Source: Nesterenkonia pannonica (lineage in GTDB: Bacteria; Actinomycetota; Actinomycetes; Actinomycetales; Micrococcaceae). Taken from it: a stretch of 64,000 nt of DNA. Position 1 is the stretch's first letter; each line of letters starts with the position of its first letter. Below are positions 5,554-64,000 of the stretch, piece by piece. The stretch covers positions 310,001 to 374,000 of the forward strand of contig NZ_CP080575.1 of NCBI RefSeq assembly GCF_019575955.1, in the 5' to 3' direction. Both the position numbers and the translations under genes were made by a program. The notes under the pieces were generated by a model. It did not search any database, was not told where the DNA came from, and saw only the letters and a list, made by a program, of their open reading frames with translations.

Positions 5554-6120
5554 TCATGCCTGCCGATCGTCTTTGCCGACCGCCCGGGCCTGTTGTCTTG
5601 CCTCGTGTGCAGTCGCGGCTTTCCCGGGCCGCCTTGAAACGATCCTGCCGGCCATCGAGAGCAGGGCGATCGCAGCGAGCACGGCTGCCAGAATGCCGTA
5701 CACCACGGTGTGGTCAGGGGTTGGCTGCATATTCCTGATAGGCGCTCCCAGAAGGATGCGAAGAGTTGCGTCGGCAGTCCAGAACGCAAGGAGTGATGCA
5801 AGGGCGCTAAGCCAGGAGAAATGGATCGCGCTTTGAGGCGCCGAGCGTCAGCAGTCCAACGACTATGGGGAAGATCGGCCCAAAACTGTCGAGAGCGGGA
5901 TGAACGCGCCTGCAGCTGTCGCCGCGAGTGCCGCCCATCCGTAGTAAGCGGACTTCTCGGTGGATCGCAGCGCGCACCAGACCACTGCTAGCGCAAGAGG
6001 GAACGCAAAAACGGAGATCAGTTCGAAGCTCGGGGACATGAGCGGAAAGTCCATGACGGCCGATATGAGCGCGCAGAGAGAGCTCAGCAGGAGCACGCTG
6101 CACCTGTGGATGGCTGACAC
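5554..6120 (-). CDS. Hypothetical integral membrane protein
   Basis: The GTG start at 6120 is preceded by GGGAGGA at good spacing. The joined product of about 190 residues has roughly five hydrophobic helices, among them CSVLLLSSLCALISAVM, LISVFAFPLALAVVWCAL and VVYGILAAVLAAIALLSMA, and a basic tail. The family is not recognised. The frame breaks at 5806-5812, where GCTAAGC stands (GCTTAGC on the coding strand). Restoring GCCGGC joins LLA to GALASLLAFW without any other change, so the stop there is probably not real. Confidence 0.6.
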
Positions 6121-6292
6121 TGTCGATTTCCTCCCGTATGCGGAGAGCTTCGTGCAGGTAAGTCCTGTTCGGCACTCAACGCCCACCCTACGGGTCTCGG
6201 TCGACGCGCAGCGCGGGGCAACGTGCATGCAACCTCTGAGTCCCTAGTGTGAGGCACATCACCTACAAGAAATTTATGACGAGGGAGTCGCC

Positions 6293-7329
6293 ATGAGCAC
6301 CATGAACGCAGCAGTCGTCGAAGACTTCGGCAGAGAGCTGTCCGTCACCGAGTATCCCGTTCCCGAGCCTGCCTCTCATCAGGCGCTGGTGAGAGTCATC
6401 GCCTCAGGCGTCTGTCACACCGACCTCCACGCCCGCGACGGCGACTGGCCGGTGAAGCCTACGCCGCCCTTCATTCCGGGGCATGAGGGTGTCGGCGTCG
6501 TCGAGAAGGTCGGCAGCGACGTGACCAACGTTGCTGTTGGGGACATGGTCGGAAACGCGTGGCTGTGGTCGGCCTGCGGCTCCTGCGAATACTGCCGCAC
6601 CGGCTGGGAGACCCTCTGCGAGCAGCAGTCCAACGGCGGGTATTCGATCGATGGATCGTTCGGCGAGTACATGCTCGTCGACGCCCGCTATGCCGCGCTG
6701 ATCCCCAAAGGTGCTGATCCGCACGAGATCGCACCGGTGCTGTGCGCAGGCGTGACCGTCTACAAGGGGCTGAAGCTGACCGGGGTGCGCCCGGGCCAGT
6801 GGGTGGCGATCTCCGGGATCGGCGGTCTTGGTCATATCGCCGTCCAGTATGCGGTGGCGATGGGCATGCGCGTCATCGCAGTGGACATCGCTGATGACAA
6901 GCTGGCGCTGGCGAAGAAGCACGGCGCTGAGATCACTCTCAACGCGAAGGGTGTGGACCCGGCGCATGAGATTCAGCAGCAGGTCGGAGGGACCCACGGG
7001 GTCCTGGTGACTGCAGTGCACCCGAGCGCTTTCGGGCAGGCGATCAGCATGACCCGGCGCGGCGGAACGATCGTCTTCAACGGCTTGCCTCCGGGGACTT
7101 CCCTGCGCCCATCTTCGACATCGTGCTGAAGGGGCTCACCATCCGCGGCTCCATCGTCGGGACGCGCCAGGACATGGTCGAAGCCCTTGAGTTCTACGAG
7201 CGCGGACTCATCCACCCGACGTACTCGAAGCGCCCGCTGAGCGACATCAACGCGGTCTTCGATGAGATGCACCACGGCAAGATCGACGGTCGAGTGGTCA
7301 TCGACTACTCCTACGCCGATGCGCAGTAG
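6293..7329 (+). CDS. adhP: Zinc-dependent alcohol dehydrogenase (AdhP/AdhA type)
   Basis: The product is a medium-chain dehydrogenase of about 345 residues that interconverts alcohols and aldehydes with NAD. The catalytic zinc region is GVCHTDLHARDGDWP plus PGHEGVG. The structural zinc site is the four-cysteine stretch SACGSCEYCRTGWETLC. The nucleotide-binding turn is SGIGGLGHIAVQYA, and VDIADDKL supplies the NAD-selecting Asp. It closely resembles AdhP/AdhT. One missing G in a G-run near 7097 breaks the frame between the segment ending GGTIVFNGLPPG and APIFDIVLKGLTIRGSIVGT. Start chosen at ATG 6293 after a purine-rich AGGGAG. Confidence 0.93.
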
Positions 7330-7342
7330 CCCGGCCTCAGCG

Positions 7343-7681
7343 CTAGGGGCCTGAGATCACCGTCGCCAGAACCAGCACCGCCGGTAGGCAGATCACGCCG
7401 AGCGCAGCGGAGGCGAGAGCCCACCTGGCCCGGTCCTGACTCCTCACCGCGCGGTCGAACCATGCAGCGGCCGCGTAAGCGAGGAGCAGTGCTGGCGGGA
7501 GAAGCAGGAGAATCGCGCCCAGGCGAAGATTGCTTCCACCGACGTATGGGTCACCGATGGTGGTGAACAGCAGCAGGACCGTGACGACGACGGCCAGCGT
7601 CATCAGGGCGACTGCTGCTGCCGGCACTCTTCGCGGGTGCTCTCGAGGTTCATGGGAACTCTGCACACGGTCTTCATACAT
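7343..7681 (-). CDS. Hypothetical three-helix membrane protein
   Basis: The product has 112 residues, with a charged N-terminus and three hydrophobic segments (ALMTLAVVVTVLLLFTTIG, GAILLLLPPALLLAYAAAAWF and ALGVICLPAVLVLATVI). No family was recognised. It lies between the convergent adhP gene and the symporter gene, 43 bp downstream of the latter. Its frame is intact. The function is unknown. Confidence 0.55.
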   Translation of the reverse strand: MYEDRVQSSHEPREHPRRVPAAAVALMTLAVVVTVLLLFTTIGDPYVGGSNLRLGAILLLLPPALLLAYAAAAWFDRAVRSQDRARWALASAALGVICLPAVLVLATVISGP

Positions 7682-7723
7682 CAGATATGCAGTGACCTCA
7701 GATAAGGCGCGGTCATCCTCAGC

Positions 7724-10127: not shown

Positions 10128-10130
10128 GCT

Positions 10131-10211: not shown

Positions 10212-11444
10212 ATGCAGCTCGACCATTCCCACCGTGCGATCACCAACGTGCGCCTGCTCGATCCTGAGACCGAGACGATCTCCGAGCCGACGACGCTTCG
10301 GATGTCCGACGATCGTATCGTCTCGATCGGTGGGACGGCCGAGTCCGGCGACGAGGCTCTGGATGCTTAAACGGGCGCATCGCGATGCCGGGCCTGATCG
10401 ACTGCCACGTGCATGTGCTGGCCAATACGGCGGACCTGGGGCGGCTCGGCGATGAGTCTCCCTCGTATCTTGCGATCACAGCCATGAACTCCATGCAGGA
10501 CGCGCTGGGCAGAGGCTTCACCACGCTGCGCGACGCTGGCGGTGCCGACTTCGGCCTTGCCCGTGCGGCGGAGGAGGGCCTGTTCCCGGCACCGAGGCTG
10601 TTCTACGGCGGCAAGGCGATCTCGCAGACCGGGGGCCACGCGGATATGCGCGCACCGGGAGGCTCGGTCATGGACTCGCATCAGTGCTGCCCTCACATGG
10701 GCGTCGTATGCGATGGGGTGTCGGAGGTGCGTCGGGCAGCGCGCCATCAGCTGCGCACCGGCGCGGATCACATCAAGCTCATGCTCTCGGGCGGCGTGGC
10801 CTCCCCGACTGACCGGGTGGACTCCACGCAATTCTCCGATGAGGAGATTCGGGCTGCGGTGGAGGAGGCCGAGGCTGCGAACCGCTACGCGCTGGGCCAT
10901 GCCTACACGGCGAAGGCCATCAACCGTGGGCTGCGGCTCGGTGTGCGCTCCATTGAGCACGGAAATCTTCTCGATGAGGAGAGCGTGCAGCTGTTCCGAG
11001 AATTCGACGCGTTCCTCGTCCCCACCCTCGTGACCTACGAGCGGCTCAAGGAGGACGGTGCGGCCAACAGGCTGCCCCAGGAGAGTCAGGACAAGGTCGA
11101 CAACGTTCTTCACGCTTAAGCATGGAGGCGCTGCGTCTGGCGGACGAGGGCGGCGTCAATATTGCTTATGGCTCTGACCTGTTGGGTGGCATGCGGGGCT
11201 GGCAGAGCCACGAGTTCTCAATCCGAGCACGTGTGCAGTCACCCGGCTCGATCCTGCGCTCGGCGACCACTACGGCCGCGAAGCTGCTGCAGAGCGAGGG
11301 GACCTCGGAGTCATCGCGGAGGGCGCCTACGCGGACCTTGTCCTTCTGGACCGGAACCCTCTCGAGGATGTCACAGTGCTGAGCGAGCCGGAGACGGCCA
11401 TCAGCCACGTGTTCAGCCGCGGCGGGCTCCTCATCGGTCGCTGA
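10212..11444 (+). CDS. Metal-dependent amidohydrolase (imidazolonepropionase-like)
   Basis: The product has about 410 residues of the amidohydrolase superfamily. Metal and active-site motifs in order are MPGLIDCHVHV (HxH), DHIKLMLSGG (the Lys that is often carbamylated), GHAYTAKAI, SIEHGNLLD and IAYGSDLLGG (catalytic Asp). This subgroup includes Xaa-Arg/Xaa-Lys dipeptidases and other amide hydrolases. The start is ATG 10212 after GAGGGAG. The reading frame is broken at 10365-10372 (GCTTAAAC) and at 11114-11121 (GCTTAAGC). Both are explained by the GCCGGC-type corruption, and the second restores LHAGMEALR. A further base is missing near 11303. Confidence 0.85.
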
Positions 11445-15129: not shown

Positions 15130-15782
15130 GCAGCGCACCGACATCGCAGAGCCCGTCGGCCGACGCCCCCGCCCGCCCGTCGGATTCGGCGCCTCGGCAC
15201 TCGGCGGTCGAGAACATCCTGGGCATCATTACCGGATGCTTCGTCGTCTCCCTGGGCCTGTTTCTGCTGAAGTCATGCCAGGCCGTAACCGGCGGCACCG
15301 CTGGGTTGGCTCTGCTGCTCAGCTATTCCATCGATGTCCCCTTTGGGGTCATCTTCATCGCCGTGAACTCCCCGTTCTTCGTGCTGGCGGTGTGGAAGAA
15401 GGGTGGGACTTCACGCTGCGCACCATCGGCGCGGTGGTGCTGGTGTCGGTGCTCGAGCCCGTTCACTCCGCCGTCATCGGCGAGATCACCATTGCGCCGC
15501 TCTACGGGGTCCTGGGAGGGAACCTGCTGACAGGGGTCGGACTGCTCATTCTGTTCCGCCACAAGGCCAGCCTCGGAGGCTTCAACATCCTGGTGCTCAT
15601 CCTCCAGGAACGCTTCAACTGGCGCGCCAAGCTACGTGCAGATGGGACTCGACGTCACGATTGTTCTGGCGGCACTCACCGTCGTCTCCCCGATGATGGT
15701 GGTGCTCTCCGCGCTGGGCGCAGCGGTGATGAATCTGACCCTGGCGCTGAATCACCGCTCCGGACGGTACTTGGTGTCGTAG
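15126..15782 (+). CDS. YitT-family membrane protein
   Basis: The product has about 215 residues with five hydrophobic helices: NILGIITGCFVVSLGLFLLK, GGTAGLALLLSYSI, IAVNSPFFVLAVW, and then a GNLLTGVGLLILFRHKASLGG signature typical of YitT/DUF161 proteins. The function of the family is unclear. It is translationally coupled to the aminotransferase. The frame breaks near 15402, and again at 15626-15632 where GCCAAGC stands. Replacing that with GCCGGC gives NWRAGYVQMGLDV and opens the frame to the TAG. Its end overlaps the convergent WYL gene by about 30 bp. Confidence 0.8.
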
Positions 15783-16479
15783 TCCGGCTGGCCGTGGACG
15801 GCTCTGGCATCCGTCGGCGGCTCCCCGACCTCGTCCACGGTGTGGCCTGTGCACGGTGTGCTGGTGACGCTGGCACGCTCGATGCGCGACACAGCGAACC
15901 AGCGGATGGCCTCGCGTGCGCGACACCATCCGACGAGGTGCCACTGGCCGTTCCTGGAGGCGAACAGCACCGGCTCGACGTCGCGGTCGGTCGTGGTGCT
16001 TAAGCCTGTGAGGTGTAGCGGATGCGGACGACGCGCTGCTCGGCCATCGCCTCCTCCACTGCTGACCTGATCGCCCGGGAGCCGGAGGGCGGCGCGCTGA
16101 CCCACACGCGGTAGGCGAGTTCCTCGGCTCGCGCCCGTGTCCGAGGATCGAGCACATCCAGGATCTTCTGCACTCCTGCCGCGGCCGAGTCGGAGTAGGG
16201 AGCATCACGCGCTGCGGAGACAGCGGCCATCAGCGCCACGGCCTGCGGGGCGGAGAGGCTGACCGGCGGCAAGGACGAGTAAGCAGCCAGGCCGTACCCG
16301 CCGCCGGGGCCGGGGCGGGACCAGATGGGGGCGCCGCTGCGATCCAGGGCTTCGAGGTCCCGTTTGACGGTGCGCACGGAGACGTCGAATTCGCGTGCCA
16401 GCCGCTCGGCCGAGCAGCCCCGTGACCCGCTGCGCCGCAGCATCTCCGACAGGGCATGAAGCCGCTCCGCCCGCTTCAT
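15752..16479 (-). CDS. HTH-11/WYL-domain transcriptional regulator
   Basis: The product has about 240 residues, starting MKRAERLHALSEMLRRSGS. A DeoR-like HTH follows (AERLAREFDVSVRTVKRDLE, then APIWSRPGPGGGYGLA). The C-terminal WYL domain begins near VVRIRYTSQA and continues as WHLVGWCRAREAIRWF. The two parts are separated by a false stop at 15998-16005, where GCTTAAGC stands for an expected GCCGGC (QA then GTTTDRDVEP). It is divergent from the alpha/beta-hydrolase gene and probably regulates it. Confidence 0.85.
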
Positions 16480-18867: not shown

Positions 18868-19838
18868 CTATGAGGGAGCCTCTGGCAGCTCAGCCCCGTA
18901 CCAGTGGGTGATCAGCGCATGCGACATGGCAGATGCCCACGGCAGCGTGATGCGGTAGGCGACGAGCGCGTCTCGCAGCTCCTCACGGCTGAACCACTGG
19001 ACATCGCGGATTTCGTCCCGATCAGCTGCCGCGCCGGTCTCCCGGGTGTAGGCGAAGAATCCCAGCATGAGCGATCGCGGATACGGCCACGACTGGGACC
19101 CAAAGTACTCCACGCGTTCCACAGTGATGCCGGCTTCTTCGTGAACCTCCCGCACGACGGCGTTCTCCACCGATTCGCCCGCCTCGACGAAGCCCGCGAA
19201 GGTTGAATAGCGACGCGCCTCGCCCTTCATGGCTGACCCCAATAGCAGCCGATCCTGATCGTCGATGACGGCCGTGATGGCGGCGGGGTCTGTGCGCGGA
19301 AAGTGCGACGAGGCGCAGTGGACGCACTGACGAGACCATCCCGACGCGCCCGGCACGGTATGACCACCGCAGGATGGGCACAGGACGGCCGACCGATGCC
19401 AGGCAAACAGGGCCATTGCCTGCGCCACACACTCCGCCTCCCACGCGGGCAGAAGGTGGCCAGCGCTGAGAAGATCATCCCAGCGGCCTTGATGCGCCTG
19501 AATGTCCGCGGAGAACTCCTCATGGGGAACGGCCACCACATGGTTGGCGCGCCCCGCATCCGCGCTTAAGCACCGTCGTTGGTCAGCTCCCCCAAATAGA
19601 TGCTCCCCTCCGGGAGAGCTCCTGCGGGAGCGGCGAACAGCACTCGCAGTGCGCCGGCTGACGTCCCGTCCGGGCCAGGAGCGGACAGGGTCGGGACCTT
19701 GCCCTCTCGGAGCAGCAGAACGCGTGTGTGGGGCTGGTTCCACACCTCATCCAGCCAGTTCTCCGCCTTCCGACGATCGCCATGCCTTTCGACACGGGTG
19801 ACCTGTCCAGTCTGAAAAGATCCCTCAGTGGTGAGCAC
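18868..19838 (-). CDS. nudC: NADH pyrophosphatase NudC (NAD-decapping Nudix hydrolase)
   Basis: The product has about 320 residues. It has a zinc ribbon (LCPSCGG, later CVHCAS), a Nudix box GFVEAGESVENAVVREVHEE that continues AGI, and the NudC marker SQSWPYPRS. It hydrolyses NAD(H) and removes NAD caps from RNA. The N-terminal domain lies in a second frame and starts at GTG 19838. The break is at 19564-19571, where GCTTAAGC stands; GCCGGC restores NDGAGADAGRANHV. It is convergent with the pcs gene. Confidence 0.9.
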
Positions 19839-25180: not shown

Positions 25181-26284
25181 CTATTTGTTCCGCCCGCGGG
25201 CGGCAACGCGCCACCGGTCGATGATGGCGCCACCGGCTGTCACGGTGACTTCATCGACGAGGTTCATCGCAAGACACACGTGGTTGGGAATGACCCGCAG
25301 GCGCTCACCCAATGCGGGCAGGGTCACGTCGGGTGGCCATACGACGGTGGCATGATGCTCCGAGAGCGCAGTGATGCGGGCGTCGAGGTGGTCCATCACC
25401 CTGCCGAAGCCCGTTGCCCACGCTGGTCGGTCGCTGCCCAGAATCTTGCTGCCCGCATCGAGGACCGCTCGTCGCGGCATGCCGTGCGTGCCCTCATGCT
25501 TAGGCTGACAACTGTGGCCGCGACGGTGAGCGCAATGTCCTCCGGCGTGCACCGTTCCAACTCAAGCTGCTGGGCGTCACCGAACACATAAACACCGGGT
25601 CTGACCTCTGTGACGAGGAGGGGCCCGTCAGGGTGGCCGTGGGCGTGGACCCTCCGCTGAGACGCTCCACATGGAACCCCGCGTTGGTGAGCAGGTTCGA
25701 GGCTGCGGCGAGAGCGGCCTCCTCCTGCTCTGCAGCCTTGATCGGCATACCGGGCGCGTAGCTGTGGCCGGGGAACGTGAAGATGCCCGCCACGTGCAGC
25801 CCGGCGGCCGCGGCTGATTCGGCAACGGCAACGGCGGCTTCCGGCGCGATCCCGCTTCGATGGTGGCCGCTGTCGATCTCCAAAAGGACGTCCATCTGGT
25901 AAGCGTCGGCTCCCATGGACTGCGCCATCATCTCCGCTGCCTCTGGGAGTCCACTCCGACAGCAAGGCGGATGTCGGCGTGCAGCAGACGTCGCAGTCGT
26001 TCGGCCTTCTGAGGTCCGACCCACAAGGGATACGCGATGAACACGTCGTCTGCGCCGTGCTCCGCGAAGACTTCGGCTTCTCCAACGGTTGCGACGGTGA
26101 GGCCGACAGCCCCGGCTGAACGCTGCAGGGCTGCTATCTCCGGCACCTTGTGCGTCTTGGCGTGAGGCCGAAGATCCAGCCCTTTGGTGCGGACCGTGGC
26201 GGCCATACGGTCGATATTGCGCACCAGCACGTCCCTGTCGATCAGGATTTCTGGTGTGTCGATGCTTTCAGGGATCAGGTGCAT
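25181..26284 (-). CDS. D-threonine aldolase / D-serine dehydratase-like PLP enzyme
   Basis: The product has about 365 residues of alanine-racemase-like fold III. It starts [20 protein letters not shown], with the PLP lysine in [17 protein letters not shown] and the zinc ligands in [14 protein letters not shown] (HxC). These residues define the eukaryotic-type D-serine dehydratase and low-specificity D-threonine aldolase group. Frame errors lie near 25945 and 25670. At 25498-25505 the minus strand reads GCCTAAGC; restoring GCCGGC gives [20 protein letters not shown] in one frame. It is divergent from pyc. Confidence 0.85.
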
Positions 26285-26472: not shown

Positions 26473-29400
26473 ATGTTCTCGAAGATCCTTGTCGCCAATC
26501 GCGGAGAGATCGCCATCCGGGCCCTGCGCGCCGGCGTCGAACTCGGGGCTCGCACCGTCGCCGTGTATCCGCACGAGGACCGGAACTCCTTCCACCGCCA
26601 GAAGTCTGACGAGGCCTACCGGATCGGCGAAGAGGGCCACGCGGTTCGCGCCTACCTGAACATCGAGGAGATCATCCGCGTCGCCAAGGACGCCGAGGTG
26701 GACGCCATCTACCCCGGCTACGGCTTCCTCTCCGAGAACCCCGACCTGGCCCGCGCCTGCGAAGCCGCCGGCATCACATTCATCGGCCCGCCCGCCGACG
26801 TCCTGGAGTCGACCGGCGACAAGGTCAAAGCTCTCCGGGCCGCCAAGGAAGCCGGAGTGCCGGTCCTGCAGAGCTCCGAACCCTCCACCGACACCGAAGA
26901 GCTGACCTGCGCCGCCGAGGAGATCGGCTTCCCCATCTTCGTCAAAGCTGTCGTAAGCGGCGGCGGTCGCGGCATGCGCCGGGTGGACACCCGCGAAGAC
27001 CTCGCGGAAGCGCTGCGCTCGGCCATGCATGAGGCCGAGACCGCGTTCGGCAACGCCACCGTCTTCCTCGAGCAGGCCGTCATCCGCCCCCGCCACATCG
27101 AGGTCCAGATTCTCGCCGACGCAGAGGGCAATGTGGTCCACCTCTTCGAGCGCGACTGCTCGCTGCAGCGCCGCTACCAGAAGGTCGTGGAGATCGCTCC
27201 CGCCCCCAGCTGGATGAGGGCATCCGGCAGGCGCTGCACCGGGACGCCGTCGCCTTCGCCAAGGCCATGGACTACCGCAATGCTTAAGCACTGTGGAGTT
27301 CCTCGTGGACACCGCCGGGGAGCGCGCCGGGCAGCACGTGTTCATCGAGATGAACCCGCGCATCCAGGTCGAGCACACGGTCACCGAGGAGATCACCGAC
27401 ATCGACCTGGTCGCCGCCCAGATGCGCATCGCCGCAGGGGAGACCCTCGAGGACCTCGACATCCGCCAGGAGGATCTGCGCGTCCGCGGGTCCGCCATGC
27501 AGTGCCGGATCACCACCGAAGACCCGCCAATGACTTCCGCCCCGACATCGGCACGGTCACCGTCTACCGTTCCGTAAGCGGCTCCGGCATTCGGCTCGAC
27601 GGCGGCACGATCTACACCGGCGCAGAGATCAGCCCGCACTTCGACTCGATGCTGGTGAAGCTCACTGCCCGCGGGCGCGACCACCAGACCGCCATCGCCC
27701 GGGCCCGCCGCGCTCTCTCGGAGTTCCGCATCCGCGGCGTCGCCACCAACATCCCGTTCCTGCTCAACGTGCTGGACTCAGAGGAGTTCATCGCCGGGGA
27801 CGTGGCCACTGACTTCATCGACGCCCACCCCGAGCTGGCCACGATCAACCGCTCCCAGGACCGCGGCTCCAAAGCCCTGCAGTACCTGGCGGACATCACG
27901 GTCAACCAGCCCCACGGCCCGCGGGTCGAAGGCATCGATCCGCGGGACAAGCTTCCGCGCTTCCCCGGGGACAAGACCGACGAACCGGACCGGAGCCCGT
28001 TCGACGGCCCCTCAGATCACCCCAAGCCGGATGGGTGGCGCCAGGTGCTCCTCGCCGAGGGTCCGGAGGGCTTCGCCAAGAGGCTGCGTGAGCAGACCGC
28101 CCTCGCCGTCACCGACACCACCTTCCGCGATGCCCACCAGTCGCTGCTCGCCACCCGGGTGCGCACCCGTGACCTGCTGGCGGCCGCCCCGCCGTCGCGC
28201 ACGTGACCCCGGGGCTGCTCTCGGCGGAGGCCTGGGGCGGCGCCACCTACGACGTCGCGCTGCGGTTCCTCTCTGAGGATCCCTGGGATCGGCTGCGTCT
28301 GCTGCGCGCGGAGCTGCCGAACATCCCGATCCAGATGCTGCTGCGCGGGCGCAACACCGTGGGATACACGCCCTACCCCTTGAGGTGACCGACGCCTTCG
28401 TCGCTGAGGCGGCCGCCACGGGGTGGACATCTTCCGGATCTTCGACGCGCTCAATGATGCGGACCAGATCATCCCGGCCATCGAGGCGGTCCGCAGGACC
28501 GGCACCGCGGTGGCCGAGGCCGCCCTCTGCTACACCGGCAACCTCTCCGATCCGGACGAGGACCTCTACACCCTGGACTACTACCTCGGCCTGGCCGAGC
28601 AGCTGGTCGACGCAAGCGCTCACATCCTCGCGATCAAGGATATGGTAGGCCTCCTGCGGCCTGCCGCCGCGAAGACCCTGGTCACCGCGCTGCGGGAGCG
28701 CTTCGAGGTGCCCGTGCACCTGCACACCCATGACACCGCGGCGGGCAGCTGGCTACGCTGCTGGCTGCCGCAGAGGCCGGAGTCGACGCCGTGGACGTGG
28801 CGGTGGCCTCCATGGCCGCGACCACGTCCCAGCCGCCTGCCTCCGCGCTGGTCGCCGCTCTGGAGCACACCGAGCGCGACACGGGGCTCGGCCTGGAAGC
28901 GGCCGCCTCGATGGAGCCCTACTGGGAGGCCGTGCGTTCGATCTACACGCCGTTCGAGTCGGGGCTCCCAGCCCCACCGGCCGGGTCTACCGGCACGAGA
29001 TCCCGGGAGGGCAGCTGTCCAACCTGCGCCAGCAGGCCATCGCCTTGGGCCTGGGGAGCGGTTCGAAAGCATCGAGGACATGTACCACGCGGCTGACACC
29101 ATGCTGGGGCGGTTGGTGAAGGTCACCCCGTCGTCGAAGGTGGTCGGCGACTTGGCGCTGCAGCTGGTCGGGATGGACGCGGATCCCGAAGAGTTCGAAG
29201 CCGACCCGCAGAGCTTCGACCTGCCCGATTCAGTGATCCAGTTCCTCGCCGGGCAGCTCGGGGATCCGCCCGGGGCTGGCCCGAGCCGTTCCGCACCAAG
29301 GCGCTGGAGGGCCGCACGGTCAAGCCTCTGGATCAGAAGCTCAGCGAAGAGGACTCGAAGGCGTTGGCCTCAGAGGACGCCGCGGAGCGGCGCCGCACCC

Positions 29401-29916: not shown

Positions 29917-29933
29917 GGAGCCTGACTCTCGGC

Positions 29934-40064: not shown

Positions 40065-41926
40065 TTATGAGTCCTCGGTGGCGAACTGGGTTCGGTAGAG
40101 CTCGGCATAGCGTCCGTCGGCCGCGAGAAGCTCGACGTGTGTGCCGCGTTCCACGATCTGACCTGCCTCGACCACGAGGATCGCATCGGCGGCGCGGACG
40201 GTGGAGAGCCGATGAGCGATCACCAATGCGGTTCGTCCCACGAGCGCTTCGGTCAGCGCGGCCTGCACCGCGGCCTCGGAGGTGGAGTCCAACGCGGCGG
40301 TGGCCTCATCGAGGATGACCACCTGCGGCTGTGCAAGCAGCAGGCGGGCCAGTGTCATCCGTTGGCGCTCGCCGCCGGAGAGCCGGTAGCCGCGTTCCCC
40401 GACCACGGTGTCCAGTCCATCGGGCATTGACTGGATCACTGATTCCAGCTTGGCTCGACGTATGGCGTCCCTGATCTGCGCGTCGGTGGCTTCCGGGCCG
40501 GCAGTGTGAGGTTGGCTCGGACAGTGTCGTGGAAGAGGTGGCCGTCCTGGGTGACCACACCTATGGAGGCGCGCAGCGACGCGAAAGTCGTCTCGCGCAC
40601 GTCCACCCCAGCCAGGCGCACCGCGCCGGAGTCCACGTCGTAGAGCCGCGCCAGCAGGGCGGCGATGGTGGACTTACCGGCTCCTGAGGAACCGACGATC
40701 GCGACAGTCTGTCCAGGCTCCACCCGCAGATTGATGCCGTGCAGCACCTGCTCGCCGCCACGCTGGTCCAGAGTGGCGACTTCCTCCAGTGAGGCCAGCG
40801 AGACCTTCTCAGCGGAGGGGTAGGAGAAGGTGACCTCCTCGAACTCCACGGATGCAGGGCCCGCTAAGCACTGGCTTGGCGTCCTCCTTTTCCGTGATCA
40901 GCGGTTCAAGGTCCAGCACCTCGAAGACCCGTTCAAAGCTGACCACCGCACTCATCACTTCTACTCGGGCGCTGGCCAAGGACGTCAAAGGAGCGTAGAG
41001 CCGGGTGAGCAGCAGGGCCAGGGAGACGACGGCTCCGGCCTGGAGTTCTCCCACGATGGCGTAGACGCCGCCTAGGCCATAGACCAGCGCGAGTGCCAGT
41101 GCGGAGACCAGGGTCAGCGCCGTGATGAAGGTGGACTGCAGCATCGCGGTCTTTACCCCGATGTCCTGGACCCGTTGGGCGCGCTTCTCGAATTCGGCGG
41201 ACTCCTCCTCAGGGCGGCCGAAAAGCTTGATCAGGGTGGCGCCTGGGGCGGAGAAGCGTTCGGTCATTTGGTCGCCCATGGCGGCGTTGTGGTTCGCCGC
41301 CTCACGCTGAAGCCCGGCCAGCCGACTGCCCATCCGACGGGCGGGAACCACGAAGATCGGCAGAAGCACGAGAGCCAGCAGGGTGACCTGCCAGGACAGT
41401 GAGAGCATCGCGATGAGGGTGAGGACGACCATCACCAGGTTGCCCACGACCCCGGAGAGGGTGCCGCTGAAGGCGCGCTGCGCGCCGATGACGTCGTTGT
41501 TCAGTCGACTCACCAGGGCGCCGGTGCGGGTACGGGTGAAGAAGGCGATCGGCATCTTCTGCACGTGGTCGAATACTGCGGTGCGCAGATCCAGGATCAG
41601 GCCCTCGCCGATCCGCGAGGAGAGCCAGCGCCCGAGGATGCTGAACCCTGCGTCGGCGACGGCGATGAGCGCGATCAGCGCGGCCAGTCCGACGACGACG
41701 TCCACGTCGGCCGAGCCCGTGATCGCATTGATGACCTGTCCAGCCAGCAGCGGAGTGGTCACCGCGAGCGCGGCGGTGACCACCGAGAGGATCAGGAACC
41801 AGATCAGTCGGACGCGGTGGGGCGTGCAAACCGCCCGATGCGAGTCAGCGTCTCCCGATTGAACGGCCGGTAGTCCTGCTTCGCATGGGTGATGCTGTAC
41901 AGCGAGCTCCGTGCCGCGCCTTCCAT
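40065..41926 (-). CDS. ABC transporter, fused permease and ATPase (multidrug/lipid exporter type)
   Basis: The product has about 620 residues. The N-terminus MEGAARSSLYSITHAKQDYR leads to a six-helix exporter domain (FARPHRVRLIWFLILSVVTA onward). The ATPase has VAIVGSSGAGKSTIAALLAR (Walker A), VTQDGHLFHDTVRANL (Q loop), GYRLSGGERQRMTLARLLLA (signature) and VVILDEATAALDS (Walker B). It is a half-transporter that should dimerise. Frame errors lie near 41830 and 40495, and at 40863-40869, where GCTAAGC (GCTTAGC on the coding strand) replaces GCCGGC and hides KPVPAGPASVEFEEV. It is convergent with the heliorhodopsin gene. Confidence 0.9.
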
Positions 41927-46468: not shown

Positions 46469-49074
46469 ATGGACGTTGACAAGCTCACCGAAAAGTCCCG
46501 CGAGGCCGTATCGGCCGCCATCTCCTACGCCGAACAGGTGAAGAACCCCGGGTTGAGCCCGCCCACCTGCTCAAAGCACTCATGGACACCCCCGAGTCCC
46601 TCGCCGTCCAAGTGCTCCGAGCCGCAGGCGGGGACCCGGAAGCAGTCAGCAGGAACGCCTCCGACCTCATCAGCAAGCTCCCCCAGCTCGGCAACGCCGC
46701 CTCCACCCAGGGCAGCCCCGGCTTCGCAGCCGTGCTGAACGCCGCCCAGCGCAACGCTGGCAACGCAGGCCACACCTACACCTCCGCCGAGCACCTCCTG
46801 CACGCCCTCGCCACCGAAGCCCAGGACACCGCAGAGGCCATCCGCCGCGGCGGAGCCACCCCCAAGACATACTCAAGGCCGCAGAGAATATCCGTGCTTA
46901 CCAGCCAGGAGACAGTGTGAACCCAGAAGCCACCTCCGAAGCGCTCTCCAAATACGGCACCGACCTCACCGCCCTCGCCAAAGAGCGCAAACTCGACCCC
47001 GTCATCGGCCGAGACTCCGAAATCCGCCGCGTCGTCCAGGTGCTCTCCCGGCGCACCAAGAACAACCCCGTGCTCATCGGCGACCCCGGCGTCGGCAAGA
47101 CCGCCGTCGTCGAAGGCCTCGCCCAGCGCATCGAGCAGGGCGACGTGCCCAACGCGCTCAAAGGCAAGACCCTCATCAGCCTCGACCTCGGCGCCATGGT
47201 CGCTTACTCCAAATACCGCGGCGAATTCGAAGAGCGCCTCAAAGCAGTGCTCGACGAGATCAAAGCCGCCGACGGTCAGATCATCAGCTTCATCGACGAG
47301 ATCCACACCGTCGTCGGCGCAGGCGGAACCTCCGACGGTTCCATGGACGCAAGCAACATGCTCAAGCCCATGCTCGCCCGCGGCGAGCTGCGGCTCATCG
47401 GCGCCACCACCCTCGACGAATACCGCGAGAACATCGAAACCGACGCCGCCCTGGAACGCCGGTTCCAACAGGTGTACGTCGGCGAGCCCACCGTGGAAGA
47501 CACGGTGGCCATCCTGCGCGGCATCAAAGAGAAGTACGAAGCCCACCACGGCGTCGAAATCGCCGACGCCGCGCTGATCTCCGCAGCCACCCTCTCCGAC
47601 CGGTACATCACCGCCCGGCAGCTGCCTGACAAAGCCATCGACCTCGTCGACGAGGCCGCTTCCCGCCTGAAGATGGAGATCGACTCCAACCCCGTCGAGA
47701 TCGACGAGCTCGACCGTGCCGTCAAGCGGCTCAAGGCCGAAGAGGAATGGCTCGAGAAGGAAGCCGACGACGCCTCCAAAGAACGCCTCGAAGTCCTCCG
47801 GGCAGAGCTCGCCGACAAGACCGAGAAGCTCGCGGAGCTCCAAGCCCGGTGGGAGGCCGAGCGGGCCACCCACGTCAGCGCCGGTGAGCTGCGCGCCAAG
47901 CGCGACGAGCTCAAATCCGCCGAGGAGCGGGCAGAGCGCGAAGGCAACCTCGCCGAACTCGGACGCATCCGCTACGGCGAAATCCCCGAGCTGGAGAAGC
48001 AGCTCGAAGCCGCCGAGGCCGCCGAGCAGTCCGCCGACAAGCAGGACCGCATGGTGCCCGAACGCGTCGACTCCGACGCCATCGCCGAAGTCATCTCCGC
48101 ATGGACCGGCATCCCCGCCGGACGCCTGTTGGCCGGAGAGACCGAGAAGCTGCTCGCCATGGAGGAGCAGATCGGCTCCCGGCTCATCGGGCAGAAGCGC
48201 GCCGTCACCGCCGTCGCCGACGCAGTCCGCCGCGCCCGCACCGGCGTGGCCGACCCCGACCGGCCCACCGGCTCCTTCCTGTTCCTCGGCCCCACCGGCG
48301 TCGGCAAGACCGAGCTGGCCAAAGCGCTCGCCGAATTCCTCTTCGAGGACGAGCGCTCCATGGTCCGCATCGACATGTCCGAATACGCCGAGAAGCACTC
48401 CACCGCACGGCTTGTCGGAGCGCCCCTGGCTACGTCGGCTACGACGAAGGCGGCCAGCTCACCGAAGCCGTCCGCCGCCGCGCCTACTCGGTGGTGCTGC
48501 TCGACGAGGTCGAAAAGGCCCACCCCGAGGTGTTCGACATCCTCCTGCAGGTCCTCGACGACGGACGCCTCACCGACGGACAGGGACGCACCGTCGACTT
48601 CCGCAACACGGTGCTCATCCTCACCTCCAACCTGGGCAGCCAGTACCTCGTCGACCAGACCACCGACGAGGCCACCAAGCGCGAACAGGTGATGAGCGTG
48701 GTGAACAGCGCCTTCAAGCCCGAGTTCCTCAACCGGCTCGACGACACCGTCCTGTTCGACCCGCTCGGCATGGAGCAGCTGACCTCCATCGTCGACATCC
48801 AGATCAGGTCCCTGCAGGAGCGGCTGGCCTCACGGCGCCTCACCCTGCAGGTCACCTCCGCCGCCAAGGAATGGCTCGGCTTCACCGGCTACGACCCCGC
48901 CTACGGGGCACGGCCGCTGCGCCACTCATCCAACGGGAGATCGGCGACCAGCTCGCCAAGGCCCTGCTCAGCGGCGCGATCGTCGACGGCGACACCGTCG
49001 AGGTCGACCGCAACGAGCTGGCGCTGCAGGAAGGGTCATCGCACGGGCTCACCGTGCGAAGGGCCGACGGCTAA
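46469..49074 (+). CDS. clpB: ATP-dependent chaperone ClpB
   Basis: The product has about 870 residues. It is a ring-forming disaggregase that works with DnaK. Order: Clp N domain ([20 protein letters not shown]), NBD1 with [20 protein letters not shown], the coiled middle domain ([20 protein letters not shown] onward), NBD2 with [20 protein letters not shown], and the C-terminal domain. AAAGGGGG precedes the ATG. Frame errors lie near 46550, 46865, 48425 and 48930. Corrupted GCCGGC sites at 47202 (GCTTAC) and 47349 (GCAAGC) turn the near-invariant MVAGSKYRG into MVAYSKYRG and SMDAGNM into SMDASNM. Confidence 0.95.
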
Positions 49075-51639: not shown

Positions 51640-53246
51640 TGAGGACGCTGACAGGGCGCAAGCGGGTGAGCACCGAAACCGGCCCCGTTCCCCGCGCCGA
51701 CCGGCGCGCCAGCGGCCCCTGCGCCCCTCCGCAGCCCCAGACACCAGCCTCACCCGCTGGCAGCGCTGGACCGTCCTGATCATCGTCTCCGCAGGGCTGC
51801 TGCTCGTGGCCCTGGACATGACGATCCTCTACACCGCCCTGCCCCGCCTGACCTCCGCGCTTGAGGCCAGCGCCTCTCAGCAGCTGTGGATCCTCAACAT
51901 CTATCCCCTCTTCATGGCCGGGCTGCTCCCCGGCTCCGGGGCGCTCGGCGACCGCTTCGGACACAAACGCACCTTCCAAGTCGGCATGGTCGTCTTCGGC
52001 GTCGCCTCCCTGACGGCCGCCTACTCCCCGAACCCCGAAGTGCTGATCGCCGCCCGCGCGCTGCTGGCCGCAGGCGGAGCGCTCATGCTCCCCGCCACCC
52101 TCGCCCTGATCCGCATCAGCTTCTCCAACGTGCGCGAGCGCAACATCGCCATCGCCGTGTGGGCCTCCACGTTCATGGTCGCCATGGCCATGGGGCCCAT
52201 CGTCTCCGGGGTGCTGCTGGAGTTCTTCTGGTGGGGATCGGTGTTCCTCATCAACCTGCCCATCGTGGCGGCCGCATCGGTTGCGATGATCCTGGTGGGC
52301 CCCGCAACGTCTACGACGCCTCACGCCGGTGGGATGCGATCTCCTCAGCCCAAGCCCTTGTCGGCATGGGGGCGGCAGTGCTGGCCATCAAGACCTGGGC
52401 CGAAGCGCCCATCGACTACCCGTGGCCATCGTCTCCACAGCAGTGGGTGCGGTGGTGCTGACCCTCTTCGCCAGACGGCAGGTGCGACTGGCCCGCACCG
52501 CCGAGCCGCTCATCGACTTCGGGATGTTCCGGAACCGCGGATTCACCGGCGGCGTCATCGGCGCCGGGCTCGCCACCTTCATCACCGCAGGGGTCCAGCT
52601 TGCCGTCGCCCAGCGCTACCAGCTGCTCGAAGGCTTCAGCCCGCTGGAGGCTGGGCTGCTCGTTACTGCGCTCGCCGCAGGCTCCGCGCCCTTCTCCATC
52701 GTCGGCGGGGCCCTGCTGCAGCGCATCGGCCTGCTCGTCCTCATCGGCGGGGGCATGGGCGTCGCCGCCCTGGGAACCATCGGCGCCACCGTCTCCGCCT
52801 TCCAGGACTCGCTGCCCGGGCTGGTGGTCTCCTGGTGATCGCCGGGGCCGGCATGGGCTGCTCCATCTCCGTGGCCTCCACCGCCATCATGGGCAACGTG
52901 CCCCCGCACCGGTAAGCATGGCCGCGTCCACCGAAGAGGTCTCCTACGAGTTCGGCAACCTGCTCGGCGTCGCCCTCCTCGGAGCCCTGCTGACGCTGGT
53001 CTACACCCACACACTCATCCTTCCGCCCAGCGTCGAGGAGTACGCTTAAGCGCCTCACCGGCAGCCGCCATCGAAAGCGGCAACGCCGACGTCATCGCCG
53101 CCGCCTCCGCAGCCTTCGACACCGCCTACCTCAGCGTCCTCACCGCGCTCTCAGCCGTGATGATCATCGGCTCCGCAGCCGTGACAGCGTTCCTGTGGCC
53201 CTACAAGCCCGGCACCGAATCCCAGGCCTACCCGAACAATCACTAA
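51640..53246 (+). CDS. DHA2-family MFS multidrug exporter (14 helices)
   Basis: The product has about 530 residues. Family marks: WTVLIIVSAGLLLVALDMTI (motif D1 region, LDMTI), WILNIYPLFMAGLLPGSGAL and GDRFGHKRTFQVGMVVFG (motif A). It resembles QacA/SmvA proton-coupled exporters of cationic compounds. Frame errors lie near 51720, 52305, 52425 and 52835. At 52909 (CACCGGTAAGC) and 53044-53051 (GCTTAAGC), restoring GCCGGC gives PPHRAGMAAS and EEYAGASPAA. Start ATG 51640; GTG 51631 is an in-frame option. Confidence 0.88.
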
Positions 53247-53989: not shown

Positions 53990-54947
53990 ATGAGCCAGCC
54001 GAACACCGCCCAGCGCGCCCGCCGAAGGCCCGCCGCGTGGATCTCCTCGCCGCAGTAAGCAGCCTCCTGCTCGGAGCCTGCGCCGACCCCACTGAGGAAG
54101 AGGCTGACGAGGGCCAGGAGGGTGAGGCCAGCGGCGCGGTCACCATCGGCTCCGCCGACTTCCCCGAGTCCGAAGTGGTGGCCTACCTCTACGCCCACGC
54201 CCTGGAGGACGCAAGCGTCGAGGTCAGCACCAGCATGAACATCGGCTCCCGGGAGGCCTACGTTCCGGCCCTGGAGGACGGGTCCATCGACCTCATCCCC
54301 GAATACACCGGCAACCTGCTCTTCTACCTCGACGAGGACTCCGAAGCGACCGACGCAGACAGCATCAACGATGAGCTCCCCGCAGCGCTGGAGGAGCGCG
54401 GCCTGGAGATGCTCACCCCGCCGAGGCGGAATCCACCGACGCCGTCGTCGTCACCTCAGAGACCGCCGAGGACTGGGACCTGACCACCATCGGCGACCTC
54501 GCCGACCAGTCCGAGGACGTCACCTTCGCCGGGCCGCCCGAGTTCCAGGAGCGCTCCGTGGGGATCCCCGGCCTGGAGGAGAACTATGGCCTGGAGATCT
54601 CCGAATTCACCCCCATCTCTGACGGAGGCGGCCCCGCCACCGTGGACGCCCTGGTCAGCGGCGACGTGACCGCTGCCAACATCTTCACCACCAGCCCTGC
54701 ACTGCCTGAGAATGACCTCGTCGTCCTCGAGGACCCCGAGAGCAACTTCCCTGCCCAGCAGGTGGTTCCCATCCTCAGCAGCGACTCCATGGACGAGGAC
54801 ATCGCCGAGACCCTCGACGCGGTCTCCGAGCTGCTGAGCACCGAGGAGCTCATCGAGCTCAACGACCGGGTCAGCGGCAGCGAGAACCAGGAGCCCTCCG
54901 ACGCGGCGCGCGACTGGCTCGAAGAGCAGGGGCTGATCGAGGGGTGA
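53990..54947 (+). CDS. opuCC: OpuC-type glycine betaine/choline substrate-binding lipoprotein
   Basis: The product has about 318 residues. GGAGG sits 9 bp before the ATG. The lipobox is LLLGACA. The mature protein follows the OpuAC/ProX plan: VTIGSADFPESEVVAYLYAH, SMNIGSREAYVPALEDGSID, LIPEYTGNLLFYL and ISDGGGPATVDAL. It captures osmolytes outside the membrane for the following ABC genes. GTAAGC at 54055 and GCAAGC at 54211 replace GCCGGC (LAAAGSLLLG; EDAGVEV). Frame errors lie near 54035 and 54422. Confidence 0.88.
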
Positions 54948-54996: not shown

Positions 54997-56041
54997 GTGA
55001 TCACCTTCCGCGGGGTCTCCAAGACCTACCCGGACGGCACCTCCGCGGTCGACGGCCTCAGCCTGACCGTGGAGGTAAGCAGCATGACCGTCTTCGTCGG
55101 CCCCTCCGGGTGCGGGAAGACCACCGCCATGCGGATGATCAACCGGATGATCGAGCCGACCGAGGGCACCATCGAGATCAACGGCTCCGACGCTGCTTAC
55201 CGCCGCCCGGCCCAGCTGCGGCAGGGCATCGGCTACGTGATGCAGCACGCCGGACTGCTGCCCCACCGCACCGTGGTCGACAACGTCGCCACCGTGCTGC
55301 GCCTCACCGGCCAGAGCCGCAAGGAGGCACGCGGCGCCTCCTACGAGATGCTCACCCGGGTGGGCCTGGACGAGTCCCTCGCCCGCCGGTACCCCTCGCA
55401 GCTCTCCGGGGGCAGCAGCAGCGCGTCGGCGTGGCCCGGGCGCTCGCCTCGGACCCGCCCATCCTGCTGATGGACGAACCCTTCAGCGCAGTGGACCCGC
55501 TGGTGCGCCAAGACCTCCAGCAGGAGCTGCTGCGCCTGCAGGACGAGCTGAAGAAGACCATCGTCTTCGTCACCCACGACATCGAAGAGGCCCTGCTCCT
55601 CGGAGACCGGATCGCCGTGTTCGGGCCCGGGGAGTGCTGCAGCAGCACGACAGCCCCGAACGGGTCCTCACCGCCCCCGCCAACGACTTCGTCTCCCGGT
55701 TCATGCGGCCGTGAGCGAGGCATCCGCTCGCTCGCCTTCGCCAGCGCCTCCCAGGTGCACATCACCCCCGCGGAGCCGCAGGGCGGGCGCGTGAGCCTCA
55801 AGGACGGATGGGCGCTGCTCGTGGACGACGCCGGACGCCCGAGGCGTGGGAGGCCCCGTCGCAGGAGAGGACCCCGGTCACCTCCACGCTCAGCGAGGAC
55901 GGCAGCCTGAGGTCAGCCGTCGACGCGGTGCTGTCCTCCCCGGCGCACACGGCACCGGTGACGGACAGCTCAGGCGCCCTCGTCGGCACGGTAAGCCGTG
56001 ATGACATCTTCGCAGCACTCGCCTCACGCTCCGGAAGCTGA
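54997..56041 (+). CDS. opuCA: OpuC-type ABC transporter ATP-binding protein with CBS region
   Basis: The product has about 350 residues. [20 protein letters not shown] (Walker A) and the phrase [10 protein letters not shown] are typical of OpuCA/ProV. The signature [19 protein letters not shown] is split by a base error near 55412. Walker B is [16 protein letters not shown]-terminal CBS-type segment ([13 protein letters not shown]) may sense ionic strength. GTAAGC at 55075 and GCTTAC at 55195 fit corrupted GCCGGC (TVEAGSMTVF). Further errors lie near 55640, 55715 and 55845. The start GTG is chosen by homology. Confidence 0.9.
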
Positions 56042-56047
56042 CCCGAC

Positions 56048-56688
56048 GTGAACTGGGCGCTCAACAACTTCTCCCGGCTCATGGAGCTCTTCTGGGAGCA
56101 CACCGTGCTCTCCACCATCCCCACCCTGCTGGGCCTGATCATCGCCGTGCCCCTGGGCCTGTTCCTCAACGATCGCCGCTACGGACGCCGCATCGCCGTC
56201 GCCCTGGCATCGATCGCCTTCACCATCCCCTCCTGGCGCTGTTCGTCACCATCCCCACCATCATCGGCACCCAGGTGCTGGACCCCATCAACGTGATCGC
56301 CGCGCTCACGCTCTACTCCGGCGCGCTGACCCTGCGCTCGGTGTTCGACTCGCTCGACGCGGTCAGCACCAGCGTCCGCGACTCCGCCCAGGCCAGCGGC
56401 TACTCGCAGTTGGGGAGGGCGCTCTTCGTGGACCTTCCCTGGCCGTCCCGGTGCTGACCGCCGGGCTGCGCGTCACCGCCGCCACAAACGTCTCCCTCGT
56501 CTCCGTGGGCGCCGTGATCGGCGTCGGCGGACTGGGCGAGCTGTTCACCTCCGGCTACCAGCGCAGCTACCCGGACCAGGTCTTCGTAAGCATCCTGGCG
56601 ATCATGGTGCTGGCCTTCATCATGGACCGGCTCATCGCCGTTGCTTAGGCTGGCTGCTCACCCCCTGGGAGCGTGCCCATGCTGGCTG
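56048..56688 (+). CDS. opuCB: OpuC-type ABC transporter permease
   Basis: The product has about 213 residues. It starts VNWALNNFSRLMELFWEHTV, with the permease signature SAQASGYSQLGRALFVDLP and VSVGAVIGVGGLGELFTSGY. It forms half of the membrane channel for osmolyte uptake. Frame errors lie near 56235 and 56445. GTAAGC at 56586 (VFAGILAIM expected) and GCTTAGGC at 56643 (VAGWLLTPWERAHAG expected) both decode as GCCGGC; the latter creates a false stop. It overlaps the next gene by 10 bp. Confidence 0.88.
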
Positions 56689-61709: not shown

Positions 61710-61711
61710 CG

Positions 61712-62724
61712 CTACAGCACCGACGTGACGGCCTGGCTCAGCCGCACCGCGCCCACGGTCCGCTGATCAGCGCCGCCGACAATGGGCTTGAGGATCTTCT
61801 TCAGCACCGCAGAGAGCTGATCAAGATCCACCGCACCGACCGAGGCCAGCAGGCTGAGACCCACCAGATAGTTGGCCCGGTGGCTGCCGTCGAGCGTCTT
61901 GACCGCCGCGGCCGTCCCATCCGGAGCCGCGAGGACCAGAACGCCCTCTGCGCCGAGCTTCGAGATCAGCCCCAGCTCCTCCATCACCACCGTGTCCGCC
62001 TCGCGGCGGCCGTGCACCAGCCAGGGGTAGTCGAGCATCGCCTGAGCCACCGTGAACGCGTGCAGCTCCGCCCCGCGGTTGCGCTGCGCCCCGGCGACCT
62101 TCCCGATGCCGCGGGCCAGGCCGGTCAGGCTCATCGCCGGAGCCGGGGCGCCGCACCCGTCCGTGCCCACTGCGACGGGGCGCTCACCGGTGTACTCCTC
62201 GATGACCTCCATGACCGACAGCTGCAGCGGGTGGTCCGGGTCCAGGTAGGTGGCCAGGCGCGAGCCCTGCGTGCGCGCCGCAGCGAGGAAAGCCGGCATG
62301 CTTGCCGGAGCAGTTGTAGGCCAGCGGGGTGGCGTCCTTGCCCGCCTCCAGGTGCACCTTCAGATCCAGCGGCGCGGACGGCAGCGCCGGAGGGCACTGC
62401 AGATGCGACTCATCGAGCCCCTCCGCCTGCAGAGTCTGGGCCACCAGGTCCTGATGCTTCCGGGACCCCACATGGGAGCCGCAGGCGATCGCCACCGCCT
62501 CAGGGAGATCAGCGCACCCGCCCGCAGGGACGCGATCGCCTGCAGGGGCTTCAGCGTGGACCGGGGAACATGGTCCGCCCGGGTGCGCCCAAGGACTTGG
62601 CCACACTGCCGTCGGCGCTGACCAGCACCGCCGAACCCAGGTGCCTGGACTCGACCACCCCAGCCCGGGTCACGACGGCCAGCTCTGCGGACTCAGCGAC
62701 GGATGCCGTCTCGACTGTGCTCAT
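61712..62724 (-). CDS. Asparaginase (L-asparaginase II family, PF06089 type)
   Basis: The product has about 335 residues. It starts MSTVETASVAESAELAVVTR. Motifs: MFPRSTLKPLQAIASL, AIACGSHVGSRKHQD, LAYNCSGKHAGF and GTDGCGAPAPAMSLTGLARG, with Ser/Lys residues expected at the active site. It differs from the classical EcAII type. It probably releases ammonia from asparagine in the cytoplasm. Frame errors lie near 62585, 62500 and 62300. It is divergent from purD, with 35 bp between the starts. Confidence 0.88.
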
Positions 62725-62759
62725 AAGCCCTAAGCCTACTGACCGATAGTCTTGGGCCC

Positions 62760-64000
62760 ATGAAGGTTCTGGTGGTGGGCCCTGGCGGCCGAGAGCACGC
62801 ATTGGTCCGGGCCCTGCTGCGCGACCCCGCCGTGGAGACGGTGGAGGCCGCCCCGGCAACGCAGGCATCGCGCGCGACGTCGTCTGTAGGCTGGTGGACG
62901 CCCAGGACGGCGACGCCGTGGCGCAGCTGGCGCTCGACGGCGCGTTCGACCTGGTGGTGATCGGCCCCGAAGCGCCCCTGGCCGCAGGAGTCGCCGACGC
63001 AGTCCGCGCGGCAGGCATCCCCGCCTTCGGGCCCTCACGGGCCGCCGCCCAGCTTGAGGCCTCGAAGGCCTTCGCCAAAGAGATCATGTCCGCGGCAGGC
63101 GTGCCCACCGCTGAGGCGGTGCACGCGGCTAAGCCCGCAGGAGGCCGCAGAGGCTCTGGACCGCTTCGGCGCCCCGCACGTGGTCAGGACGACGGCCTCG
63201 CCGCTAAGCAAAGGCGTGGTGGTCACCGATGACCGCGAGGAGGCGCTGGCGCACGCCCAGGCCTGCTTCGAGGTCGGCGGAACGGTGGTGATCGAGGAGT
63301 TCCTCGACGGCCCCGAGGTCAGCCTCTTCGTCCTCTCCGACGGCGAAAGCCTGGTGCCGCTCACTCCTGCCCAGGACTTCAAGCGCATCTTCGACCACGA
63401 CGAGGGCCCCAACACCGGCGGCATGGGCGCCTACACCCCCTGGACTGGCTGGAGGGCTACACCGAGACCGACTCCTCCGGCACCGTCCGGGACTTCACCC
63501 AGATCGTGATGGATGCCGTGGCGGCTCCCACCGTTCAGGAGATGGCCCGCCGGGGCACCCGTTCGTCGGCGTGCTCTACTGCGGCCTCGCCGTCACCTCG
63601 CGCGGTGTGCGCGTGGTGGAGTTCAACGTCCGCTTCGGCGACCCCGAGACCCAGGCGGTCCTGGAGCGGCTCGAGACCAGGCTCGGCCAGCTGCTGCACG
63701 ACGCCGCAGTCGGCGCCCTGAACGCAGGCCCGGACGGGACTGGTAAGCCCCTGGCCTGGAAGCCCGGCGCCGCCGTCGACGTCGTCCTTGCCGCCGCGAA
63801 CTACCCGGAGACCCCGCAGAAGGGCGACCCCATTGAGGGGCTGGACCGAGCGGAGGCCCTGGAGGGCGTCTCTGTGCTTCATGCGGGCACCGCCGCCGAC
63901 GATGCTGGCCGCACTCTCACCATAAGCGGACGGGTGCTCGCCGTCGTCGGGAACGGCGCCAGCCTCGCCGAAGCGCGCGACCGCGCATACGCCGGAGTCG
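62760..64000 (+). CDS. purD: Phosphoribosylamine-glycine ligase, 3' end outside window
   Basis: The segment has about 413 residues. It starts MKVLVVGPGGREHALVRALL, with the ATP-grasp fold: VIGPEAPLAAGVADAV, SKAFAKEIMSAAGVPTAEAV, VVVTDDREEALAHAQACFEV, EGPNTGGMGAYTP and VEFNVRFGDPETQAVL. It joins glycine to phosphoribosylamine. Corrupted GCCGGC sites: 63128 and 63203 (GCTAAGC, expected HAAGPQEAAE and GLAAGKGVVV) and 63922 (ATAAGC, expected TAGGRVLAVV). Other base errors lie near 62853, 63188, 63440 and 63560. Confidence 0.92.

Follow-up and report, generated by a model that had tools for sequence, protein, structure and literature searches.

Site-specific alteration of GCCGGC in a Nesterenkonia pannonica assembly, a probable footprint of methylation by a NaeI-type restriction-modification system

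Why should one palindrome, GCCGGC, be replaced by A/T-rich strings in unrelated genes of the same bacterial genome? The question is raised by a 64,000-nucleotide stretch of Nesterenkonia pannonica (the window, i.e., positions 310,001-374,000 of the single 2,699,453-base contig of genome G000), in which an original prediction made from the sequence listed 27 positions where GCCGGC appeared to be corrupted, and proposed that a modified base in this motif had misled a nanopore-type basecaller. We find that GCCGGC is altered in a site-specific manner throughout the genome, that this alteration depends on the whole hexamer, and that genes encoding a C5-cytosine methyltransferase, a NaeI-family endonuclease and a Vsr mismatch endonuclease are located together elsewhere on the contig. 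It is highly likely, in our assessment, that a NaeI-type restriction-modification system methylates GCCGGC to give 5-methylcytosine (m5C), and that an early nanopore-type basecaller misread the native DNA.

Loss of GCCGGC and the strings that replace it

Using the reversed hexamer CGGCCG as a control, we counted 686 copies of GCCGGC and 2,715 copies of the control in the whole genome (2.70 Mb), a ratio of 0.25. By contrast, GCCGGC outnumbers the control in all 23 of the other genomes listed from the same genus, with ratios from 1.10 (G009) to 1.46 (G015), and in the 14 listed genomes from other families the ratio falls no lower than 0.50 (G037). Multiplying the genome's own control count by the range of ratios in the genus and subtracting the 686 copies present, we estimate that 2,300-3,300 altered strings replace GCCGGC genome-wide. 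The genome nearest by clpB, G013 (86% DNA identity), served as the reference for expected counts, which are G013 counts scaled either to a 464 kb sample of G000 (the window plus 400 kb) or to the window. GCCGGC occurs 121 times in the sample against 890 expected, and 17 times in the window against 124 predicted, where the control occurs 60 times against 87 predicted.

Alignment of the 464 kb sample with 400 kb of G013 yielded 50 blocks with 277 kb of columns, mostly at 75-83% identity. When 1,798 hexamers, each with at least 60 well-flanked occurrences, were ranked by conservation between the two genomes, GCCGGC was the lowest of all at 1.5%, against a mean of 35%, with TCCCCC second-lowest at 2.2%. 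Site by site, with each aligned site counted once and 141 further GCCGGC sites with poor flanks excluded, 7 of 427 GCCGGC sites are retained, compared to 278 of 1,330 sites of six other G/C palindromes (Fisher p ~7e-28). Strings resembling TAA or TTA are present at 84 of the 427 GCCGGC sites and at 20 of the 1,330 control sites (p ~4e-36), and longer strings at 21 and 18, respectively (p ~7e-5). Miscalled sites differ from GCCGGC by one to three substituted bases and are lengthened by up to two. At the retention seen for the controls, ~89 GCCGGC sites would have been kept, so that ~82 are missing; odd strings are in excess by ~78, i.e., losses and surplus nearly balance at aligned sites.

The altered forms listed in the original prediction could be divided by their frequency. 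Four are enriched: GTAAGC/GCTTAC (238 vs 28 expected in the sample; 27 vs 3.8 in the window, both strands), GCTAAGC/GCTTAGC (49 vs 3.5; 9 vs 0.5), GCTTAAGC (35 vs 0; 6 vs 0) and GCCTAAGC/GCTTAGGC (16 vs 3.5; 3 vs 0.5). The remaining forms, GCAAGC, GTAGGC, GCCAAGC and ATAAGC, are not clearly enriched. A count of GCTTAAGC in 396 genomes of the order found no genome above G000, which has 165 copies. The next-highest counts are in G276 (92), G416 (78) and G316 (75), which belong to one genus of another family and have genomes of ~1.5 Mb; the reversed control of this string occurs in them 13, 19 and 15 times, respectively.

Could a basecaller or assembler simply fail at GCCGGC because of its sequence context, with the DNA unmodified? 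Runs of G or C are also miscalled in this assembly, showing that the sequencing process was error-prone in G/C-rich sequence. In the sample there are no C/G runs of six or more, against ~96 expected, and runs of five are at less than half of expectation; TCCCCC/GGGGGA (46 vs 285) is worse affected than AGGGGG/CCCCCT (76 vs 222). A lack of long homopolymers is typical of early nanopore consensus sequences, and these runs are the other systematic loss that we saw besides GCCGGC. Sequences closely related to GCCGGC are treated differently. Of its neighbours in the sample, ACCGGT (125 vs 133), ACCGGC (364 vs 401), GCCGGT (375 vs 397), TCCGGA (169 vs 194) and GCCGGA (425 vs 435) are close to expectation, with milder deficits in GCCGGG (460 vs 592), CCCGGG (281 vs 380) and CCGCGG (512 vs 698). 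At aligned sites, 73 of 211 ACCGGC, 70 of 209 GCCGGT and 53 of 208 GCCGGA are retained. Since one-letter neighbours are near expectation, the strong effect requires the whole hexamer. We therefore regard failure by context alone as very improbable, in that neither one-letter neighbours nor other G/C palindromes are affected likewise (in a comparison with genomes whose sequencing platforms are not recorded), and in that a candidate for the enzyme expected for GCCGGC is encoded in the genome.

The NaeI-type locus

The original prediction anticipated a modification enzyme for GCCGGC, and suggested looking for either a methyltransferase or a dnd/ssp-type system. We found a candidate for the former. 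A C5-cytosine methyltransferase (PF00145) is encoded in two pieces at contig positions 174,687-175,564, ~135 kb upstream of the window, and facing it is a NaeI-family endonuclease (PF09126) in four pieces at 175,748-176,548 (best E-value 2.1e-30), the first of which matches the solved NaeI structures 1ev7/1iaw over 72 residues with an E-value of 1.7e-19. A gene encoding a Vsr mismatch endonuclease (TIGR00632) adjoins this locus at ~176,646-177,083. We take the recognition site of NaeI to be GCCGGC, cut as GCC/GGC, and the specificity of the methyltransferase would follow from that of its NaeI partner. One report prints the NaeI site as GCC/CCG, a non-palindromic sequence that we regard as a misprint (PMC4081073). 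No match to DndC was present in any of the 30 genomes of the genus, a negative tempered by weak controls (matches in 5 of 14 control genomes, all below the cut-off) and by broken frames that could hide genes.

Is this gene pairing found in other genomes? Among 396 genomes of the order surveyed for NaeI outside G000, 14 carry a total of 15 loci that passed the cut-off; one further match, which fell short of it, was omitted. At 10 of these 15 loci, a methyltransferase 50-74% identical to that of G000 is encoded within the 1.5 kb flanks; two have a distant methyltransferase (31-32% identical), and three have none in the stretch fetched. Within the genus, the NaeI family was matched in 2 of 30 genomes, G000 and, only in part, G001. 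In the latter (contig C7, ~29,633-30,218), a partial NaeI gene covering positions 3-140 of the 288 in the profile abuts the first ~43 residues of a facing methyltransferase that is 84% identical to the one in G000. This arrangement probably represents a relic from which the middle was deleted. GCCGGC is not depleted in G001.

The presence of a NaeI-family gene raises a second explanation, namely that GCCGGC was genuinely lost by mutation under restriction pressure from the cell's own enzyme. Consistent with some avoidance, 9 of 15 other NaeI carriers have a ratio of GCCGGC to control below 0.85. However, these 15 carriers (including G001 with its partial gene) range from 0.68 to 1.50, with none near 0.25, and G037 reaches 0.50 with no NaeI match, so mild depletion of GCCGGC is not specific to carriers. 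Avoidance also predicts substitutions, rather than A/T-rich strings one or two bases longer than the motif in genes whose relatives retain GCCGGC, and we consider it extremely unlikely as the source of the pattern.

A further question is the nature of the mark. N4-methylcytosine, a phosphorothioate or an elaborated base in place of m5C might be considered given the size of the miscalls, and given that current basecallers have been trained for some m5C, according to a study of Listeria (PMC10687267). These alternatives seem to us most unlikely: the methyltransferase next to NaeI is of the C5 type and is accompanied by Vsr, and G000 has no match to PF01555 (N6/N4 methyltransferases), a negative, like that for DndC, behind which broken frames could hide a gene. 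Untrained m5C can also be highly disruptive; for the basecallers tested in 2019, m5C at Dcm sites accounted for ~70% of consensus errors (PMC6591954). There is likewise only a slim chance that the mark at GCCGGC departs from plain m5C or adds to it, an idea that would account for the size of the miscalls and for their frequent lengthening of the sequence. PF01555 is matched in 27 of the 30 genomes of the genus, and is unmatched in G013 and G004 as well as in G000. An NgoMIV-family endonuclease was matched in none of the 30, and the control genomes were also without matches, which makes this a weak negative.

Altered sites within the window

The strings named in the original prediction are present at all 27 positions listed, including those given in gene orientation. 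Individual sites were compared with 11 relatives for the pyruvate carboxylase gene, and with 10 for clpB.

26530..26535, unaltered GCCGGC flanked by C and G; 10 of 11 relatives likewise GCCGGC
26953..26958, GTAAGC, altered GCCGGC in the pyruvate carboxylase gene; GCCGGC in 11 of 11 relatives; Val-Ser in the window, Ala-Gly in the solved homologues shown
27282..27289, GCTTAAGC, altered GCCGGC with two extra bases, same gene; GCCGGC in 11 of 11 relatives
27574..27579, GTAAGC, altered GCCGGC, same gene; GCCGGC in 10 of 11 relatives
28612..28617, GCAAGC, altered GCCGGC, same gene; GCCGGC in 9 of 11 relatives
28645..28650, GTAGGC, same gene, weak; relatives have GCCGGC in 0 of 11, GCCGGA in 9 and GCCGGG in 2
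47202..47207, GCTTAC, altered GCCGGC in clpB; GCCGGC in 4 of 10 relatives, GCCGGA/T/G in the other 6; Ala-Tyr in the window, Ala-Gly in the solved homologues shown
47349..47354, GCAAGC, altered GCCGGC in clpB; GCCGGC in 5 of 10 relatives; Ala-Ser in the window, Ala-Gly in the solved homologues shown

Relatives thus support an altered GCCGGC at four sites in the pyruvate carboxylase gene, and relatives and homologues support one at the two sites in clpB; 28645 is weak. The following are probable altered GCCGGC sites, to which the enrichment of their strings points; the corresponding G013 sequence is given where the aligned stretch of that genome reaches the site.

5806..5812, GCTAAGC, one extra base; outside the G013 stretch
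11114..11121, GCTTAAGC; outside the G013 stretch
15998..16005, GCTTAAGC; outside the G013 stretch
19564..19571, GCTTAAGC; outside the G013 stretch
25498..25505, + strand, GCTTAGGC; G013 has GTCGGC
30681..30688, GCTTAAGC; outside the G013 stretch
31794..31800, GCTTAGC; outside the G013 stretch
33458..33465, + strand, GCCTAAGC; outside the G013 stretch
40863..40869, GCTAAGC; outside the G013 stretch
53044..53051, GCTTAAGC; G013 has ACGGGC
54055..54060, GTAAGC; G013 has GCTGGC
55075..55080, GTAAGC; G013 has GCGGGG
55195..55200, GCTTAC; G013 alignment gapped
56586..56591, GTAAGC; G013 has GCCGGA
56643..56650, + strand, GCTTAGGC; G013 has GCAGGA
63128..63134, GCTAAGC; G013 has TCCGGC
63203..63209, GCTAAGC; G013 has GCGGGC

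Three further sites are weak.

15626..15632, GCCAAGC, a form not enriched; outside the G013 stretch
54211..54216, GCAAGC, a form not clearly enriched; G013 has AGCGGG
63922..63927, ATAAGC, a form not enriched; G013 has GCAGGC

Overall, 13 of the 27 listed sites fall within the G013 stretch, which has exactly GCCGGC at 2, a sequence differing by one or two letters at 9, and a larger difference or a gap at 2. Finding 2 of 13 exact is unsurprising, because at this distance only some 20% of control palindrome sites are retained, and the comparison says little about the other 11. Of the 14 sites outside this stretch, 5 are those in the pyruvate carboxylase gene that were compared in 11 relatives. 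Several single-site assignments outside this gene and clpB are accordingly plausible but unproven.

The pyruvate carboxylase gene itself (window positions 26400-29800) is nearest to its counterparts in G021, G018 and G017 (89%); by clpB these three share only 77% identity with G000. G013, the nearest genome by clpB, lacks a full match to the pyruvate carboxylase gene. These comparisons suggest that the two genes have different histories, perhaps through transfer. A scan of the window with Rfam gave nothing at the gathering threshold.

A proposed mechanism and its implications

We propose that the C5-cytosine methyltransferase of the NaeI-type system would place m5C in GCCGGC, and that native DNA would then have been read by a nanopore-type, early-model basecaller with no training on this motif. 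The central bases of methylated sites would have been called as A/T-rich strings, for example GTAAGC, GCTTAC or GCTTAAGC, and the consensus would have retained these miscalls. Strings centred on the hexamer, together with the methyltransferase, NaeI and Vsr genes, thus lend support to the suggestion of a modified GCCGGC misleading a basecaller, with the nanopore platform presumed. From the assembly and gene content we infer this platform, the activity of the methyltransferase on GCCGGC, the m5C mark and the cytosine that bears it.

Several observations weigh against this interpretation. The methyltransferase frame is broken once in the assembly, near 175,364-175,370, and the NaeI frame three times, near 176,324 and, at runs of four C, near 176,013-176,037 and 175,897. 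Miscalled homopolymers in the assembly may account for these breaks; since the frames are broken, the argument for enzyme activity comes from the GCCGGC footprint itself, and if this methyltransferase caused the errors, it must be active. The evidence consists of an assembly and its gene content, and the aligned error pattern does not indicate which cytosine is methylated. Approximately one fifth of GCCGGC persists and varies with the flanking bases, surviving at 0 vs 74 for GGCCGGCC, 9 vs 183 for CGCCGGCC, 36 vs 115 for CGCCGGCA and 6 vs 17 for TGCCGGCA. The named strings explain only about half of the GCCGGC missing from the 464 kb sample, although aligned sites balance better. Four of these strings show no clear excess in the sample or the window, namely GCAAGC (165 vs 155; 25 vs 21.4), GTAGGC (342 vs 292; 47 vs 40.3), GCCAAGC (80 vs 102; 11 vs 14.1) and ATAAGC (30 vs 27; 6 vs 3.7), and single sites of these forms therefore need support from alignment. 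G000 also differs from G013 in further aspects of composition, for example in the deficit of CCGCGG noted above and an excess of GCGCGC (420 vs 280). Finally, a second C5 methyltransferase is encoded at contig positions 1,761,148-1,761,705. As a k-mer scan gave no recognised second altered motif besides homopolymers, nothing points to this gene. Its frame is also broken, and its surroundings appear phage-like by eye, with one neighbour resembling a single-strand binding protein.

How does this compare to known systems? Errors concentrated at one methylation motif by untrained basecallers, and accompanied by homopolymer errors, resemble those at Dcm sites (CCWGG) in Klebsiella (PMC6591954) and those in Listeria, where assemblies suffered from modification of GCAGC and GCTGG in particular lineages (PMC10687267). 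Unlike these cases, the motif here is the palindrome GCCGGC, which the altered strings often exceed in length by one or two bases; the cause was proved there by reads or demodified DNA, and here is deduced from the assembly and gene content. As in the NaeI system, a NaeI-family endonuclease sits next to a C5 methyltransferase; in contrast to it, both genes here are frame-broken, a Vsr gene is adjacent, and recognition of GCCGGC is presumed. A methylated cytosine in GCCGGC, as proposed here, has precedents in M.NgoAIV of Neisseria gonorrhoeae (PMC12871193) and in Aeromonas hydrophila NEB724, for which GCCGGC is a validated motif of an m5C study (PMC8565308), with the difference that no NgoMIV-family match was found in the 30 genomes of the genus, the weak negative noted above. 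In the gonococcus, 32 of 33 GCCGGC sites at pilE/pilS were called 5mC by recent nanopore software, i.e., they were not read as other sequence as in G000 (PMC12871193), which suggests that an older basecalling model lies behind the corruption seen here. Artefacts of this kind are therefore already known, the present host, motif and NaeI-Vsr locus adding a new instance; we found no description of an artefact at GCCGGC in the literature searched, a search whose coverage excluded most subscription papers.

A real DNA modification very probably left this artefact as its footprint. Many genes look broken in this assembly, very probably because methylated GCCGGC was misread, but are probably intact; the altered strings and shortened homopolymers fit the completeness of 62% at which the genome is rated. 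Frameshifts, stop codons or pseudogenes that G000 appears to contain are thus not to be trusted without other reads. More generally, errors in a finished assembly can reveal a methylated motif: here the motif was noticed first and led to a targeted search that turned up the NaeI locus.

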